Assembly (NCBI GenBank): GCA_003818495.1
Contig: RPRK01000024.1
Coordinates: 1-40,092 of the forward strand
Direction: 5' to 3'
From: Burkholderiales bacterium
GTDB lineage: Bacteria; Pseudomonadota; Gammaproteobacteria; Burkholderiales; Burkholderiaceae_E
Length of the DNA stretch: 40,092 bases
The notes beneath the pieces were generated by a model. That model was not told the DNA's origin. It saw only the letters and a list, made by a program, of their open reading frames with translations, and made no database searches. This document shows, one piece after another, positions 33,513 through 39,574 of the stretch (position 1 is its first letter; every line of letters begins with the position of its first letter). Both the position numbers and the translations under genes were made by a program.

Positions 33513-34640
33513 TCACCCCTTCATGCCCAGCCGCTCGCGCAGCCGGATGCCGAGCGTCGAGCCCGCGAAGGCCGCGGCGAACCAGACCCATCCGTGCAGA
33601 CTGCCGGACGAGATGCCCGAGAAGAACGCGCCGACGTTGCAGCCGAACGCCAGCCGTGAGCTGTAGCCGAGCACGAGGCCGGCGACGATCGCGGCGAGCC
33701 ACTGGCGCATCGGCACCGGACCCAGGTCCGGGCACGCGGTGCCGCGCCGTGCCGCCACCAGCAGCGAGCCCGCGAGCAGGCCGAGGTTGGTGATGGTGGT
33801 GACGTCGTCGAGCACCGGTGCGGCGACCTGCGCCATCCGGGCCTCGGTGCCCCAGAAGGCGTTGCCCGACAGGTCCGCACCCAGCCAGGTGACGATCTTC
33901 GCGCCCCACAGCCCCGGGCCGTAGACGATGCCCCAGGGCTGGCCGGCGATGACGAGGTTGGCCACCCCGAGCACCGCGAGCAGGATCGCGCCGATCCAGA
34001 CGCCGCGCCCGACCCAGCGGGTGCCGGTGGCGCGGCGCGCGCGCCAGGCGAGCGCGCCGAGCACGACGAGCGCGGCACCCTGCGCGGCGATCGTGCCTCC
34101 CGCGCCGAGCGTCTCGACGAGCGACACGCCGGGCAGGCTGCCCCACGACAGCCACCAGTCCTGATGGGCGGCGCCCAGGAAGCTGCCGATCACCAGTCCC
34201 GGGAAGGCGGCGATGCTCGCCGGATGTCCGAGGCCGGCCTTGTAGAGCGTGCCCGAACCGCAGCCGTCGGCGACCTGCATCGCCGCGCCGAACACGAACG
34301 CGCCGAGCACCAGGCTCCACGACAGCGGCGCCACCGCACCCGAGAGCTCCGGGTGCGTGGCGAGCAGCGGCACGGTGCCGAGCATCGCCAGTCCGATCGC
34401 GAGGAACTGGGCCAGCAGGCCGGTCGGGTCGCGCTGCCTGAGCCACACGCGCCAGCCGGTGGTGAATCCGAACGCGGTGGCGGCCAGGACCGCGCCGAAC
34501 CCGAGCCCTACCAGCACCAGCAGCCCCTGGCGCACGCCGGCCACCCAGGTGACCGCGAACCAGGCGAGCGGCACCACCGCCCACGGCGCGAGCCGGGGCA
34601 CCGCGCCCACCGCCGGATGCGGTCGTGCGACGCTGCTCAT
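33513..34640 (-). CDS. YeeE/YedE (TsuA-like) thiosulfate-type transporter
   Basis: The 375-residue inner-membrane protein has about ten helices arranged as two repeats. Each repeat has a conserved cysteine segment: QVADGCGSGTLYKAGLG (Cys127) and RLAFGCNVGAFFSGISSGSLHGW (Cys334). In the structurally known thiosulfate transporter TsuA, conserved cysteines pass thiosulfate along the pore. The sulfurtransferase gene lies 7 bp upstream on the same strand and may supply or process sulfur on the periplasmic side. ATG 34640 fits. Substrate (thiosulfate or another sulfur anion) is by homology only. Confidence 0.88.
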   Translation of the reverse strand: MSSVARPHPAVGAVPRLAPWAVVPLAWFAVTWVAGVRQGLLVLVGLGFGAVLAATAFGFTTGWRVWLRQRDPTGLLAQFLAIGLAMLGTVPLLATHPELSGAVAPLSWSLVLGAFVFGAAMQVADGCGSGTLYKAGLGHPASIAAFPGLVIGSFLGAAHQDWWLSWGSLPGVSLVETLGAGGTIAAQGAALVVLGALAWRARRATGTRWVGRGVWIGAILLAVLGVANLVIAGQPWGIVYGPGLWGAKIVTWLGADLSGNAFWGTEARMAQVAAPVLDDVTTITNLGLLAGSLLVAARRGTACPDLGPVPMRQWLAAIVAGLVLGYSSRLAFGCNVGAFFSGISSGSLHGWVWFAAAFAGSTLGIRLRERLGMKG

Positions 34641-34647
34641 CGGGGCC

Positions 34648-35622
34648 TCAGCTCCCCGACAGCTTCAGGTCGATCAGCAGCTGGCGCATGCGGTTCGGCA
34701 CGTTCGACATCGGCAGCCCCGCGCGCGACCACTCCACCATCGACTCCGGGTACAGCTTCACGTCCTTCTCGCCGAGCATCTCGGACATCACGAACCAGTT
34801 GGTCGCCGCCCAGTGGCCGGTGTTGCAGAACGAGACCGCATCGGTGCCCGAGCCGGGCTCGATGCCGTTGGACTGCGCCACGCGCTTGACGTCGGCGGCG
34901 GCGAGCAGCGCGCCGCTGCCCTTGTTGAACCACACCGCCGAGTCGACGTTGCTCGCGCCGGCGATGGTGCCCGGCGCCTTGGCGGCGACGTGGCGGGTCT
35001 CGCCCTCGAAGAAGGCCTTCGGGCGCGCGTCGATCAGCTTGGCCTTCTGCGCCGACTGGGCCTGCACGACGTCGTCGCGGGTCGCGATCAGCCGCGTGTC
35101 GATCTGCGCGACGTAGCCCGACGGGCGCACCTGGACGGCGTCGGTCGGCAGCGGCCGGCCGGCCGCGCGCCACGCGCTCACGCCACCGTTGAGGATCGAC
35201 AGCTTCGACAGCCCGGCGGTCTTGAGCGTCCAGTACACCCGGGCGGCCGCGCCGAAGTCGGTCGCGTCCTTGCCTTCGTGGGCCACCACCACCTCGGTGT
35301 CGCGATCGATGCCCAGCCGCTGCAGCAGCGCGGTGAGCGCCTGCGCATCGAGCGGCTTGCCGGGGTTGTCCTTGGGGCCGCGCCACAGCGAGTAGGGCGC
35401 CGACACCGCACCCGGCAGGTGTCCGGTCTCGTACGGCGTGCGGCCGGCGGGATCCTTGCCGTCGCGGATGTCGAGGATCCGCAGCTGCGGCGCGTCGAGC
35501 TTCGCGGCCAGTTCGGCCTGCTCGACGATCGGTGCGGCCTGCACAGCCGGCGCGGCGAAGCTCAGCGCGGCGGCGAACAGCGCGGCCGACAGGAGGCGGT
35601 GGGAGGGGCGCATCGAGGTCAT
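34648..35622 (-). CDS. Exported two-domain sulfurtransferase (rhodanese family)
   Basis: The product is 324 residues if ATG 35622 is used, with a signal peptide (SAALFAAALSFAAPAVQA), so it should act in the periplasm. Two rhodanese domains follow. The first (about 35-155) has no catalytic cysteine. The second carries the active-site loop CNTGHWA with Cys266 (VSFCNTGHWAATNWFV). Family members move sulfane sulfur from thiosulfate to thiophilic acceptors. It precedes the YeeE-type transporter gene by 7 bp. A start at 35613 is also possible, and neither ATG has a good Shine-Dalgarno. It is divergent from the SAM-II-controlled metX operon. Confidence 0.88.
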   Translation of the reverse strand: MTSMRPSHRLLSAALFAAALSFAAPAVQAAPIVEQAELAAKLDAPQLRILDIRDGKDPAGRTPYETGHLPGAVSAPYSLWRGPKDNPGKPLDAQALTALLQRLGIDRDTEVVVAHEGKDATDFGAAARVYWTLKTAGLSKLSILNGGVSAWRAAGRPLPTDAVQVRPSGYVAQIDTRLIATRDDVVQAQSAQKAKLIDARPKAFFEGETRHVAAKAPGTIAGASNVDSAVWFNKGSGALLAAADVKRVAQSNGIEPGSGTDAVSFCNTGHWAATNWFVMSEMLGEKDVKLYPESMVEWSRAGLPMSNVPNRMRQLLIDLKLSGS

Positions 35623-35708: not shown

Positions 35709-35737
35709 TTGACACCCGCCGGCCCGGCCGCTACCGT
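35709..35737 (+). promoter_or_regulatory. Sigma-70 promoter of the metX operon
   Basis: A perfect -35 TTGACA (35709-35714) is followed by exactly 17 bp and then TACCGT (35732-35737), a plausible -10. Transcription should start near 35744, at the first base pairs of the SAM-II aptamer, which strongly supports both assignments. Confidence 0.85.
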
Positions 35738-35743
35738 CACCGC

Positions 35744-35792
35744 TCGCGCCGATTTGACCCAGCTTGCGGGCGCGTTACAAATGCGGCTAAAG
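35744..35792 (+). promoter_or_regulatory. SAM-II riboswitch (SAM_alpha aptamer)
   Basis: The RNA begins CGCGCC-GATTTGACC (35745-35759), which pairs by a 6-bp P1 stem with GGCGCG (35769-35774). The loop contains GCTTGC, and the 3' part has CGTTACAAATG and GGCTAAAG. These conserved blocks match the SAM-II (metA) motif of alphaproteobacteria and the metX structure, including GATTT-ACC, GCTTGC and GCTAAA. It binds S-adenosylmethionine to repress methionine genes. The metX gene lies downstream, and an intrinsic terminator follows at 35817. I compared it from memory; the pseudoknot pairing was not worked out base by base. Confidence 0.88.
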
Positions 35793-35816
35793 CGGCGCAC
35801 CGCGACCCCGCCCGTG

Positions 35817-35850
35817 CCCGACCGCCGCAGCCAAGCCGGTCGGGTTGTTT
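35817..35850 (+). terminator. Terminator downstream of the SAM-II aptamer (likely attenuator)
   Basis: An 8-bp perfect stem (CCCGACCG, 35817-35824, with CGGTCGGG, 35837-35844) has a 12-nt loop and is followed by TTGTTT. Lying between aptamer and metX, it could stop transcription when SAM is bound. The T-run is short and contains a G, so strength is moderate. Confidence 0.7.
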
Positions 35851-35905
35851 CATTCCAGGCCGTCCGCGGCCGACGATGACCACACGGGATACGGGACACG
35901 ATTCG

Positions 35906-37114
35906 ATGACCGATTCGGTCGGAGCCACCACCCCGCAGCGGCTGCGCTTCGAGGCCCCGCTCGCGCTCGCCAGCGGCGCCTCGATCGCCGGCTACGAGCT
36001 CGTCTACGAGACCTACGGCACGCTCTCGCCGGCGCGCGACAACGCGGTCCTGGTCTGTCATGCGCTGAACGCGTCGCATCACGTCGCGGGCACCTCGGCC
36101 GCCGACCCGTCCGACCTCGGCTGGTGGGACAACATGGTCGGTCCCGGCAAGCCGCTCGACACCGACCGGTTCTTCGTCGTCGGCGTCAACAACCTCGGCT
36201 CGTGCTTCGGCTCGACCGGGCCGATGTCGATCAATCCGGCGACCGGCCGGCCCTACGGCCCCGACTTCCCCGTCGTCACCGTCGAGGACTGGGTGCGCAC
36301 GCAGGCCCGGCTCGCCGACGCCCTCGGCATCGAGCGCTTCGCGGCGGTCATGGGCGGCTCGCTCGGCGGCATGCAGGCGCTCGCCTGGAGCACGCTGTTC
36401 CCCGATCGGCTCGGCCACTGCATCGCGATCGCGACCGCACCGAAGCTCTCGGCGCAGAACATCGCCTTCAACGAGGTCGCGCGCCGCGCGATCGTCACCG
36501 ACCCCGGCTTCCACGGCGGGCGCTTCTACGATCACGGCACCGTGCCCGCGCACGGGCTGAGCGTGGCGCGGATGATCGGCCACATCACCTACCTGTCGGG
36601 CGACACGATGGCCGAGCGCTTCGGACGCACGCTGCGCCGGCACGCCTCGGACACCGCGCTGCGCGACGGCTACCGATTCACCTTCGACGTCGAGTTCGAG
36701 ATCGAGTCGTACCTGCGCTACCAGGGCGAGAAGTTCTCGAAGTACTTCGACGCGAACACCTACCTGCTGATCACGCGCGCGCTCGACTACTTCGACCCGG
36801 CGGGAGCCCACGGCGGCGACCTCGCGGCCGCGATGGCGCCGGCGCGCTGCGACTTCCTGGTCGCCTCGTTCACCACCGACTGGCGGTTCGCGCCCGAGCG
36901 CAGCCGCGAGATCGTCGCGGCGCTGCTCGCCAACCGCCGCCGCGTGACCTACGCCGAGATCGACGCGCCGCACGGCCACGACGCCTTCCTCCTCGACGAC
37001 GTCCGCTACCACGCGCTGGTGCGTGCGTACTTCGACCGGATCGCCGCGGCACTGCCCGGCGCCCCCGTCCGCAGTGCCGCGCCGGCCCGCGACCACGCGG
37101 TGCTCGCATCATGA
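35906..37114 (+). CDS. metX: Homoserine O-acyltransferase
   Basis: MetX acylates homoserine (acetyl or succinyl donor, not decided here) as the first committed step of methionine synthesis. The 402-residue protein is an alpha/beta hydrolase. The nucleophile Ser152 lies in [12 protein letters not shown], and the catalytic Asp/His are near the C-terminus in [15 protein letters not shown]. Strong family stretches include [49 protein letters not shown] and [16 protein letters not shown] 35906 matches the usual MetX N-terminus ([16 protein letters not shown]). ATG 35876, ten codons upstream, is an alternative. Expression should be repressed by SAM through the riboswitch. metW follows with an ATGA overlap. 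Confidence 0.96.
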
Positions 37115-37785
37115 GCACCCTCGCACCCGGCGCAACGGGGCGCGGCACGGCGCCCGTGATGGCCTCGCAGCGCCCCGACGCCAACGGCCTGCGGCCCGAT
37201 CTCGCGGTGATCGCCGACTGGATCGCACCCGGCTCGCACGTCCTCGACCTCGGCTGCGGCGACGGCGCGCTGCTCGATCACCTGCAGCGCGCCAAGCGCT
37301 GCACCGGGTACGGCGCCGAGATCGACGACGCCCAGGTGCTCGCCTGCGCGCGGCGCGGCGTCGACGTCATCCAGCAGGACATCGAGGCCGGCCTCGACGT
37401 GTTCGCGGGCAGCCGCTTCGACGTCGTCGTGCTGTCGATGGCGATCCAGGCGACCCACCAGACCGAGCGCGTGCTGCGCGAGATGAGCCGGCTCGGCGCC
37501 GAGGGCATCGTGTCGTTCCCGAACTTCGGTCACTGGTCGCACGCCTGGTCGATCCTGCGCGGCCGCATGCCGATCTCGCGCGAGATGCCCTACCGCTGGT
37601 ACGACACGCCGAACCTGCACCTGTCGACGCCCAAGGACTTCGAGGACTTCCTCGACGGACTCGGACTCGCGATCACGCGGCGCGGCTTCCTCGCGGACGG
37701 CCGGCCGGTCGGCGTGCTGCCCGGCCTGCGCGCGACCCAGGCGATCTACCGCTTCCGGGTGCGCCCGGTCCGGGGCGCCGCGTGA
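37111..37785 (+). CDS. metW: Methionine biosynthesis protein MetW (methyltransferase-like)
   Basis: MetW is the usual partner of MetX in proteobacteria and is needed for full homoserine acyltransferase activity in several species. The 224-residue product has a SAM-dependent methyltransferase fold with the glycine motif [15 protein letters not shown] (motif I) and later [23 protein letters not shown] and [27 protein letters not shown], a MetW hallmark. The ATG at 37111 overlaps the metX stop (ATGA). An in-frame ATG at 37159 (MASQRPD) fits the family start better, so the first 16 residues may not be translated. It overlaps the next gene by GTGA. Confidence 0.94.
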
Positions 37786-38219
37786 CGGACGCCCCCGACA
37801 ACTACATCCTGCGGCTGATCCGGGGCGAGGCGCCCCAGCATCCGATCGGCGAGACCCTGGGCGCCCGCATCCTCGAACTCGACCTCGCGGCCGGCCGCCT
37901 GGAGATGGAGTTCGTCGGCACCGACGCGTTCCGCAACCCGGCGGGCACCGTGCAGGGCGGCATGCTCGCGGCGATGCTCGACGACGTGACCGCGTCGCTC
38001 GCCACCGCGACCGCCACGCAGGACGAGCGCTGCGCGACCCTCGATCTGCACACCTCGTTCCTGCGGCCGGCGAAGGTCGGCCCCATCCGCGCGAGCGCCC
38101 GCGTCGTGCGTCGTGGCCGCGAGATCGTGCACGTCGCCGGCGAGCTGTCGCAGGACGGCCGGCCCGTGGCCACGGCCACGGCGACCTGCATGCTGGTCGC
38201 ACCGCGCCCCGGCGGCTGA
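37782..38219 (+). CDS. PaaI-like hotdog thioesterase, second copy type
   Basis: The 145-residue protein has the single hotdog domain of PaaI/DUF4442-type thioesterases. The active-site segment is FRNPAGTVQGGMLAAMLDDVTASLA (residues 50-74), with the family Asn52, the QGGM turn (59-62) and Asp67/Asp68 as catalytic candidates. LHTSFLRPAKVGPIRASARVVRRGREIVHVAGEL follows as core strands. Substrate is unknown. It begins with GTG at 37782, overlapping the metW stop (GTGA), so it belongs to the SAM-II operon. It is distinct in sequence from the thioesterase after metH. Confidence 0.87.
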   Translation: MTDAPDNYILRLIRGEAPQHPIGETLGARILELDLAAGRLEMEFVGTDAFRNPAGTVQGGMLAAMLDDVTASLATATATQDERCATLDLHTSFLRPAKVGPIRASARVVRRGREIVHVAGELSQDGRPVATATATCMLVAPRPGG

Positions 38220-38323: not shown

Positions 38324-38329
38324 GCGCGG

Positions 38330-39574
38330 ATGTCCCAGCTCCCTCTCCTCGCGGGCGAGACCGGCTTCGAGCCGACGCCCGAGGCCGCACGCGCGCGCCT
38401 CGAGGCCGTCGACCCCGGCGCCTACGCCCGCACCCGCAACGCCCTCGACGGCGCGGTCACGCGGCTCTCGCCGTACCTCACGCACGGCCTGCTCGACGTG
38501 CCGGAGGCGCTCGCCGCGATCCGCACCCGGCACCACGTGCCGGTCTCGCACAAGCTCGCCTTCGAGTTCGGCTGGCGCGAGTACTTCCGCCATGCGTGGC
38601 GGCATCTCGGCGAGGGCGTGCTCGCCGACGTGCGTCCGCCGCCGTGGTCGGGCCGGTACGCGTCGGCGATGCCGGCCGACATCCTCGAGGCGCGCACCGG
38701 CGTGCCCGCCATCGACCATGCGGTGCGCGAACTGCATGCGACCGGCTGGCTGCACAACCACGCGCGCATGTGGGTGGCGTCCTACGTCGTGCACCTGCGC
38801 AAGGTGCACTGGCGCGCGGGGGCCGACTGGATGCATGCGCACCTGCTCGACGGCGACCTCGGCGCGAACCACCTGAGCTGGCAGTGGGTGGCCGCGACCT
38901 TCTCGGCCAAGCCCTACGTCTTCGATGCGGGCAACGTCGCGCGCTATGCGCCGCGCGCGTGGCAGTGCGGCGGCACGGTGGTGGACCGCTCCTACGAGGC
39001 GCTCGACGCGCTCGCCCGCGGCGCGCCCGACGTCGGTCCGGAACCCGCCGACCCGCGTGGTCGGTCCGGCCCGCGTCCCGCCACCGAGCCGCCGGCGGTC
39101 CACGCCTCGCCGCCCGCCGATGCGCTGGCCGGACTGCGCACGGCCGACGAGCCCGCCTGGCTCGCGGAGATCGTGGCGGCCTGCGCGGCGTCCGGAGACG
39201 CGCGGGTGCGCATCGTCCATCCGTGGTCGCTCGGGGCGCCGCGCGAGGGTGGGCCCGCGACCCGCGTCGGTCTGCTGCATGCGCCGTATCATTCGCGGTT
39301 CCCGTGGTCGTCCCGACGCTGGGCGTTCGTGCTCGGCGCGATGCGCACGCACGTCGAGGGGGTCCACCTCGGCGACGCGCGCCGCGCGCTCGATGCACTG
39401 CTGGACGCGGGCCTCGTGCCCGTCCTGCGCGACGCGCTGGTGCCGGGCTGGCGTGAGGCCATCGAGGCCGCGGCCCGACGCGGTGCGGTCGTCGAGCCGG
39501 TGCCGCGCGAGTGGGACGACCCCGACCGGCTGTGCGGGTCCTTCACCCGGTTCTGGAACATCGTCTCCCGCTGA
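38330..39574 (+). CDS. Photolyase/cryptochrome-like FAD-binding protein with C-terminal extra domain
   Basis: The 414-residue protein starts directly in the FAD-binding helical domain of the photolyase/cryptochrome family. It has SPYLTHGLLDVPEAL, AFEFGWREYFRHAW, TGWLHNHARMWVASYVVHLRKVHW and GADWMHAHLLDGDLGANHLSWQWVAATFSAKPYVFDAGN (residues 46-205), the last being the adenine and FAD pocket. No N-terminal antenna domain is present. Instead, after a proline-rich linker (about 220-265), a C-terminal alpha/beta-like domain (about 270-414) contains RFPWSSRRWAFVLGAMRTHVEGVHLGDARRALDALLDAG. Function could be DNA repair or a blue-light sensor, or neither. ATG 38330 is favoured over an in-frame ATG at 38291. 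A short tandem repeat begins at its stop. Confidence 0.82.
   Translation: MSQLPLLAGETGFEPTPEAARARLEAVDPGAYARTRNALDGAVTRLSPYLTHGLLDVPEALAAIRTRHHVPVSHKLAFEFGWREYFRHAWRHLGEGVLADVRPPPWSGRYASAMPADILEARTGVPAIDHAVRELHATGWLHNHARMWVASYVVHLRKVHWRAGADWMHAHLLDGDLGANHLSWQWVAATFSAKPYVFDAGNVARYAPRAWQCGGTVVDRSYEALDALARGAPDVGPEPADPRGRSGPRPATEPPAVHASPPADALAGLRTADEPAWLAEIVAACAASGDARVRIVHPWSLGAPREGGPATRVGLLHAPYHSRFPWSSRRWAFVLGAMRTHVEGVHLGDARRALDALLDAGLVPVLRDALVPGWREAIEAAARRGAVVEPVPREWDDPDRLCGSFTRFWNIVSR

Follow-up and report, generated by a model that had tools for sequence, protein, structure and literature searches.

A SAM-II riboswitch upstream of metX in a Burkholderiales bacterium and its relatives within the order

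The window, by which we mean the whole 40,092-nucleotide stretch of DNA that was analysed, comes from a Burkholderiales bacterium and contains a metX gene whose start is either the ATG at 35876 or an in-frame ATG at 35906; an earlier sequence-only reading of this DNA, which ended the leader at 35906, presumes the second. The leader and the genes behind it are laid out below, with the promoter, P1, the conserved blocks and the hairpin all located where that reading had placed them.

35709–35714, plus strand: −35 box TTGACA, perfect consensus
35732–35737, plus strand: −10 box TACCGT, 3/6 match, after a 17-nt spacer
35736–35811, plus strand: SAM-II aptamer as delimited by RF00521, with its core at about 35745–35795
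35745–35750, plus strand: P1 5′ strand CGCGCC, pairing with 35769–35774 in six Watson-Crick pairs
35751–35759, plus strand: conserved block GATTTGACC
35759–35767, plus strand: P2 pseudoknot, 5′ side (C35759, C35760, C35763, G35766 and C35767; columns 21, 22, 25, 28 and 29 of alignment A1)
35762–35767, plus strand: conserved block GCTTGC
35769–35774, plus strand: P1 3′ strand GGCGCG, six Watson-Crick pairs with the 5′ strand
35773–35777, plus strand: conserved block CGTTA
35785–35792, plus strand: conserved block GGCTAAAG
35786–35795, plus strand: P2 pseudoknot, 3′ side (G35786, C35787, G35792, G35794 and G35795; columns 48, 49, 54, 56 and 57 of A1)
35817–35854, plus strand: intrinsic terminator, with stem CCCGACCG (35817–35824) and CGGTCGGG (35837–35844) and a 12-nt loop
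35845–35854, plus strand: U-rich tail TTGTTTCATT, directly 3′ of the terminator hairpin
35876–37114, plus strand: metX, homoserine O-succinyltransferase type (NF047916 MetX_succinyl, 651.6 bits, cut-off 560)
37111–37785, plus strand: metW, overlapping metX by 4 nt (TIGR02081, 241.2 bits, cut-off 189.5)
37782–38219, plus strand: hotdog-fold thioesterase with a GTG start, overlapping metW by 4 nt (TIGR00369, 58.8 bits, cut-off 36.6)

Divergent from metX, positions 33513–35613 on the minus strand encode two proteins that score below curated cut-offs, one a rhodanese-like sulfurtransferase and the other a YedE/YeeE-like membrane protein; this pair makes a sulfur-related neighbourhood upstream of metX. 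A 416-aa protein is encoded at 38324–39574 on the plus strand. Its residues ~31–191 align, below the curated cut-off, with the C-terminal portion of DASH-type photolyase/cryptochrome models (positions 229–397 of the profile), the remainder being unmatched. The nearest named relatives of the metX product, among the matches listed, come from a Burkholderiales MAG (90% identity) and Zeimonas arvi (79%). A metW homologue was found at 79/80 named metX loci. The same loci contained no homologue of the thioesterase, the rhodanese or the photolyase-like protein (0/80; tblastn, E ≤ 1e-6), in a search that reached at most 3 kb either side of metX and less at contig ends. These three were found in only two of the seven same-genus loci fetched (L142 and L144), and a locus from a different genus (L149) likewise lacks them. 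The sequence-only reading had metX, metW and the thioesterase repressed together. Its first part, metX together with metW, is plausible given the 4-nt overlap and can safely be adopted; the thioesterase was added locally and is a lineage-specific member of the putative operon.

A scan of 4227 Rfam families against the 40-kb window returned RF00521 (SAM_alpha) as the sole family to reach its gathering score. The match covers 35736–35811 on the plus strand and the full length of the model (positions 1–79), with 36.9 bits (E 6.8e-5) against a gathering cut-off of 36 bits. A search with this model had been proposed from the sequence; its outcome is a significant match. At E ≤ 0.001 the whole genome yielded one reported match, the metX leader. 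RF01726 (SAM-II long loops) and SAM-V, which we take to be RF01826, did not reach their own gathering scores in the window. The P2 pseudoknot comprises five pairs from the P1 loop to the 3′ tail. The folding stability of the full leader does not exceed that of its shuffles (z 0.34).

Transcription is predicted to start at ~35744–35745, at or beside the first base of P1. A generic promoter and terminator scan of the window reported neither feature, because the −10 box matches at 3/6 positions and the 12-nt terminator loop exceeds the limits of the scan. The promoter immediately 5′ of P1 recurs: among 27 distinct same-family metX leaders, 26 have TTGACA (TTGACG in L026) followed 16–18 nt on by a −10-like box, and the sole exception, L006, showed no match. 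From the end of this box to P1 is 6–14 nt in the family and 7 nt in the window. Across 76 distinct metX leaders, 29 have a promoter match of at least 8/12 with the −10 box ending 5–11 nt before P1, compared to a mean of 0.75 and a maximum of 3 in 100 composition shuffles. So neat a placement had been thought notable. It is usual for the class, since a possible start site commonly lies a few nucleotides before P1 in SAM-II, according to the relevant section of Corbino et al. (2005, PMC1273637).

Within the same family, RF00521 was matched at E ≤ 0.001 in 44/74 genomes (32 above the cut-off), and within the class, presumably GTDB Gammaproteobacteria with Burkholderiales included, in 118/369 sampled genomes (31 above the cut-off). 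Control genomes gave 0/14 in each search, and both searches were run with stricter filters at the expense of weak matches. The element lies immediately 5′ of metX and on the same strand at 29/31 same-family loci, the window's own counted; the remaining two are L020, where it precedes metZ (NF006003, 640.2 bits, cut-off 522), and L031. From 61 loci we assembled an alignment (A1) of 55 distinct elements, leaving out five exact duplicates and one pattern mismatch (L033). Standard pairs occupy 97.0% of P1 and P2 cells in these 55 elements, compared to 31.7–50.7% when the partners are slid out of place. There are 44 two-sided changes, 20 of them at a single P1 pair, whereas shuffles gave a mean of 6.5 and none of 500 reached 44; because many of the elements are closely related, these changes should not be read as independent. 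P1 is 98.5% paired over the 55 sequences, with two-sided changes at four of its six pairs. P2 is 90.9–100% paired per helix, with two-sided changes at one pair and two pairs invariant. The identification as SAM-II therefore holds, on both the RF00521 match and the covariation of P1 and P2. Judged in this way, the metX leader carries a standard, ordinary SAM-II riboswitch, a member of RF00521, and its element would be expected to bind SAM.

The terminator that the sequence-only reading had seen between aptamer and metX is likewise in place. Of 28 distinct same-family leaders, 23 have a hairpin with a U-rich tail, the scan finding none in the other five; overall the count is 35/76 leaders. Four of these five leaders, all from the same genus as the window (L007, L022, L024 and L030), retain the aptamer without the U-rich tail, so some of the control may work in another way. 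In equilibrium folds of the 23 same-family leaders the mean terminator probability was 0.96 in the bound state, in which the aptamer is withdrawn from pairing, 0.89 in the free state and 0.91 with a shuffled aptamer. The free state fell below the shuffled one in only 6/23 of these leaders, and in 4/12 of the others; a general equilibrium antiterminator is therefore unsupported across the 35 of 76 distinct leaders that have a terminator. In the window itself, the terminator probability was 0.99 with the aptamer withdrawn versus 0.38–0.99 when free, varying with the chosen 3′ end.

Folds of the growing transcript in the window gave a candidate antiterminator. Before the 3′ arm of the terminator is complete, its 5′ arm and its loop are paired with the aptamer at probabilities of 0.62 and 0.42, respectively, and P1 still has a probability of 0.96 when the transcript reaches 35836. 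The pairs involved are UGCGGC (35782–35787) with GCCGCA (35824–35829) and CGG (35793–35795) with CCG (35818–35820). The two halves, taken from the minimum-energy fold of 35744–35836, are as follows.

35782–35800, plus strand: candidate antiterminator, 5′ half (35782–35787, 35793–35795 and 35797–35800), overlapping the 3′ side of P2
35814–35829, plus strand: candidate antiterminator, 3′ half (35814–35820 and 35824–35829), covering the larger part of the terminator 5′ arm and the first bases of the loop

Since the P2 3′ strand is part of this candidate, SAM binding would preclude antitermination and vice versa. Across 28 same-family leaders we also scored how far segments of the aptamer are complementary to the leader behind it. 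The 5′ P2 segment had a mean z of −1.15, and five other segments ranged from −0.18 to 0.45; this is suggestive only, because the leaders are not independent. A z of −2.26 for a 'burk' group was not used, being biased by the choice of that group through a motif complementary to the tested segment.

Computation establishes the aptamer with its structure, the promoter, the terminator and the gene, whereas SAM binding, the antiterminator and the size of the effect are inferred; attenuation in the window would work as follows. Transcription would begin at or next to the first P1 base, and P1 would fold. SAM binding would let the loop strand pair with the 3′ strand (GGCUAAAGCGG) and close the P2 pseudoknot, barring 35782–35795 from downstream pairing, and the terminator at 35817–35844 with its U-rich tail would form. 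Without SAM, the 3′ strand (35782–35787 and 35793–35795) would pair with 35824–35829 and 35818–35820 before the 3′ arm of the terminator exists, and the terminator would then form too late to stop polymerase from reading through into metX. The strands expected to be protected by SAM are GCUUGC and GGCUAAAG.

A different account accepts a genuine SAM-II and places control mainly at translation or at Rho, with the terminator merely setting a constant read-through. It is the lesser of the two accounts, though one to be reckoned with at perhaps a quarter of the weight. The equilibrium terminator is alike in bound and free states in most leaders tested, and the four same-genus leaders with an aptamer and no U-rich terminator fit this account. 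So does the metA leader of S. meliloti, where part of the published account (PMC9373788) describes a validated terminator behind a SAM-II for which no SAM-II-driven antiterminator could be predicted. However, the possible metX start codons at 35876 and 35906 lie 80–110 nt past the end of the aptamer at 35795, so direct cover of the ribosome-binding site by the aptamer is impossible. Moreover, promoter (26/27) and terminator (23/28) recur in same-family leaders, and co-transcriptional folding of the window yields a candidate antiterminator. The best explanation of the whole is, with high confidence, a SAM-II riboswitch that switches metX–metW off at high SAM, probably by attenuation.

Known aptamers have variants with altered specificity, and the fold could in principle sense a related compound, such as S-adenosylhomocysteine, in place of SAM. 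We consider this very unlikely. The signature letters GATTTG, CUUGC and GCUAAAG are all present in the window, and each of their columns is at least 90% conserved, if not invariant, in the 55 elements of A1. Moreover, the genes behind the elements, among those scanned, are metX in the window and its relatives and metZ, metY or metK in relatives, which SAM feedback would fit. Weaker still, to the point of being scarcely credible, is the view that a degenerate relic, or mere chance, produced a match barely above the Rfam threshold: the score is just 0.9 bits over the gathering cut-off, but R1, a covariance model from the 55 elements (the window's among them), scores the element at 74.5 bits, near-identical aptamer, promoter and terminator precede metX in relatives, and recurrence among genomes together with covariation rules out a chance match.

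The sequence-only reading had also singled out a SAM-II in a betaproteobacterium as noteworthy. Such elements were already in print by 2007–2009, as excerpts of that literature indicate, and R1 finds the element in 67/100 genomes of the order. In the 80 genomes with named metX loci, RF00521 was matched in 12 at the cut-off and in 20 at E ≤ 0.001; weaker matches were not counted, because 3/14 controls also match at E ≤ 0.1. With R1 at E ≤ 0.01, an element was found 5′ of metX, and always on its strand, in 53/80 loci (of which L062–L065 copy members of the model), and a pattern search gave 53/80 as well. The union is 54/80, so at its cut-off RF00521 misses many members in Burkholderiales. The 26 loci without an element by R1 or pattern include Massilia, Janthinobacterium and Polynucleobacter. 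Loci assigned to Comamonadaceae and Alcaligenaceae were placed there according to what we take to be their taxonomy.

Leaders with an element number 82 (29 same-family and 53 named); parsing succeeded for 71 and failed for 11. As parsed, the linker from P1 to the P2 3′ strand is 9 or 11 nt in 38/71 and at least 18 nt in 33/71. All 32 distinct long linkers are predicted hairpins, 29 of them with z below −2 against shuffles; leaders of this kind include L069, L077, L082, L089, L125 and L130, and the form precedes metX in Burkholderia, Paraburkholderia, Cupriavidus, Ralstonia and others. When 16 metX loci (14 with an insertion) were scanned with cmscan, RF00521 was reported only in L085, which is free of an insertion, and RF01726 in none. 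Rfam therefore misses many metX elements because a hairpin is inserted between P1 and the P2 3′ strand. In L069, L072, L080, L082, L086 and similar Burkholderia-type leaders the terminator scan was negative. The same leaders have a TTTAGCCGC-like segment, complementary to aptamer GCGGCTAAA, just 5′ of GGCGGA at the metX start. In this group, itself selected by the motif, the segment suggests translational control.

Before metZ, the element meets another Rfam entry. RF02424 (Bp2_287, a 'sRNA') was matched at E ≤ 0.001 in 5/14 genomes searched, and above its cut-off in three, all Paraburkholderia. Eight such places were inspected. At the four best (L162–L165; the three Paraburkholderia and a sub-cut-off Pandoraea) R1 found a SAM-II on the opposite strand, followed by a hairpin that ends in a T-rich tail and then by metZ; at the four weakest (L166–L169, 27.9–32.8 bits) R1 found no SAM-II. 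Weak RF02424 matches in L151, L152, L153, L155 and L157 also lie opposite the SAM-II strand.

In the window's own genome, R1 gives a second match (G000:C11:10897–10966, 33.4 bits) before metK (TIGR01034, 598.3 bits, cut-off 309.4), the element extending over L150:2396–2475, or G000:C11:10895–10976. The only Rfam match at this place was on the opposite strand and far below the cut-off (E 2.7). An SAH riboswitch (RF01057, 52.6 bits) lies ~3 kb away on the same contig, at L150:5603–5666. This divergent form, with loops GUUAA and ACAACUUGC, was found 54–97 nt 5′ of metK in 12/37 loci fetched with model R2, the own genome included; four of the metK genes were verified by family model. A further 13/37 have the divergent form elsewhere, several as the second element of a tandem, and 12/37 were not matched by its pattern, three of these having metK. 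Over 25 sequences, 94.3% of its P1 and P2 cells are paired, with 19 two-sided changes, as many as none of 500 shuffles showed, of which 15 come from one P1 pair. The R2 tallies of 71/100 and 121/274 are not counts of the divergent form, because R2 also matches ordinary SAM-II (the window at E 5.1e-9). The relatives suggest that a SAM-II-like leader, matched by no Rfam family, is frequent before Burkholderiales metK.

In L151–L158 a SAM-II is followed ~90–170 nt further on by a divergent SAM-II-like element. Downstream lies a MATE-like transporter in L151 and L154–L157 (confirmed by TIGR00797 in L155 and L157) and the start of a sulfhydrylase-like gene in L158. One genome (G320, contigs C2 and C6) has ten R2 matches, two at each of five places, one of which is L043; the protein nearest the L043 element matched no NCBIfam model at E ≤ 1e-20. 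Outside Burkholderiales, within the class, three genomes of one genus have a SAM-II directly 5′ of metK (TIGR01034; L041, L054 and L060). SAM-II and its relatives are probably the common SAM sensor of the Burkholderiales methionine branch, in three forms: compact, as in the window; enlarged by an inserted hairpin that separates P1 from the P2 3′ strand; and divergent, alone before metK or second in a tandem.

Compared with known systems, the window alone adds one more well-formed SAM-II to a known class, and its relatives are more interesting than the instance. It resembles the SAM-II (SAM_alpha, RF00521) of Corbino et al. (2005, PMC1273637) in its full-length match, P1, P2 pseudoknot and signature loops, and in a promoter just before P1 and a terminator before a methionine gene; the corresponding section of that paper gives many members with terminators and a few members in other proteobacteria. 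The difference from what is described there lies in the host, a member of Burkholderiales versus an alphaproteobacterium, and none is structural. RF01726 (Weinberg et al. 2010, PMC2864571) is a SAM-II variant with enlarged loops, but is listed, in the entry concerned, for Bacteroidetes and marine samples and is unmatched in the window. Tandem SAM-II doublets are known, with 44 examples in PMC9481103, which also treats SAM-II/SAM-V, so that the divergent form may already count as SAM-II there. As in several of our relatives, the first aptamer of these doublets is followed by a terminator and the second lies near the gene, whereas the window has a single SAM-II.

The best four RF02424 matches coincide with a SAM-II and terminator before metZ, but the Rfam model runs on the opposite strand, is typed as an sRNA gene and is unmatched in the window. 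The family therefore looks strand-inverted, and these four matches suggest that RF02424 represents the antisense of a SAM-II leader that belongs to metZ. Khoo et al. (2012, PMC3521395), the source of Bp2_287, themselves proposed, in their passage on it, a cis-acting element of methionine metabolism.

Lastly, the metXZ element, a term used within the literature searched only by Leyn et al. (2014, PMC4239095), was reported in the pertinent section of that paper as novel, with ligand unknown, a single copy per genome and consistent terminators, and SAM_alpha was given there for Rhizobiales and Rhodobacterales only. By the same section it stands before metXW or metZ, the place of the SAM-II elements here; its regions 1–4 and 2–6 pair as a pseudoknot, a topology we compared by its verbal description; and it occurs in Burkholderia, Ralstonia, Comamonadaceae and Alcaligenaceae, groups that our loci share. 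A terminator lies behind metXZ as behind our elements. Two points speak against identity: Leyn et al. report the terminators as consistent, whereas ours were found in 35/76 metX leaders, and they give one copy per genome, where R1 detects two or more elements in many genomes. Position, worded topology and taxa agree with a pseudoknotted element before metXW or metZ, and from these described features the betaproteobacterial metXZ is most likely a SAM-II, in many cases carrying an inserted hairpin. Taken together, these comparisons suggest that the 'novel' betaproteobacterial RNA element of 2014 and an Rfam 'sRNA' family are an unrecognised and a strand-inverted SAM-II. If the three-form reading is true, it identifies the orphan metXZ and the inverted RF02424 as SAM-II, and fills the gap noted in the metK portion of Leyn et al. 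(2014, PMC4239095), where betaproteobacterial metK had no known methionine regulator.
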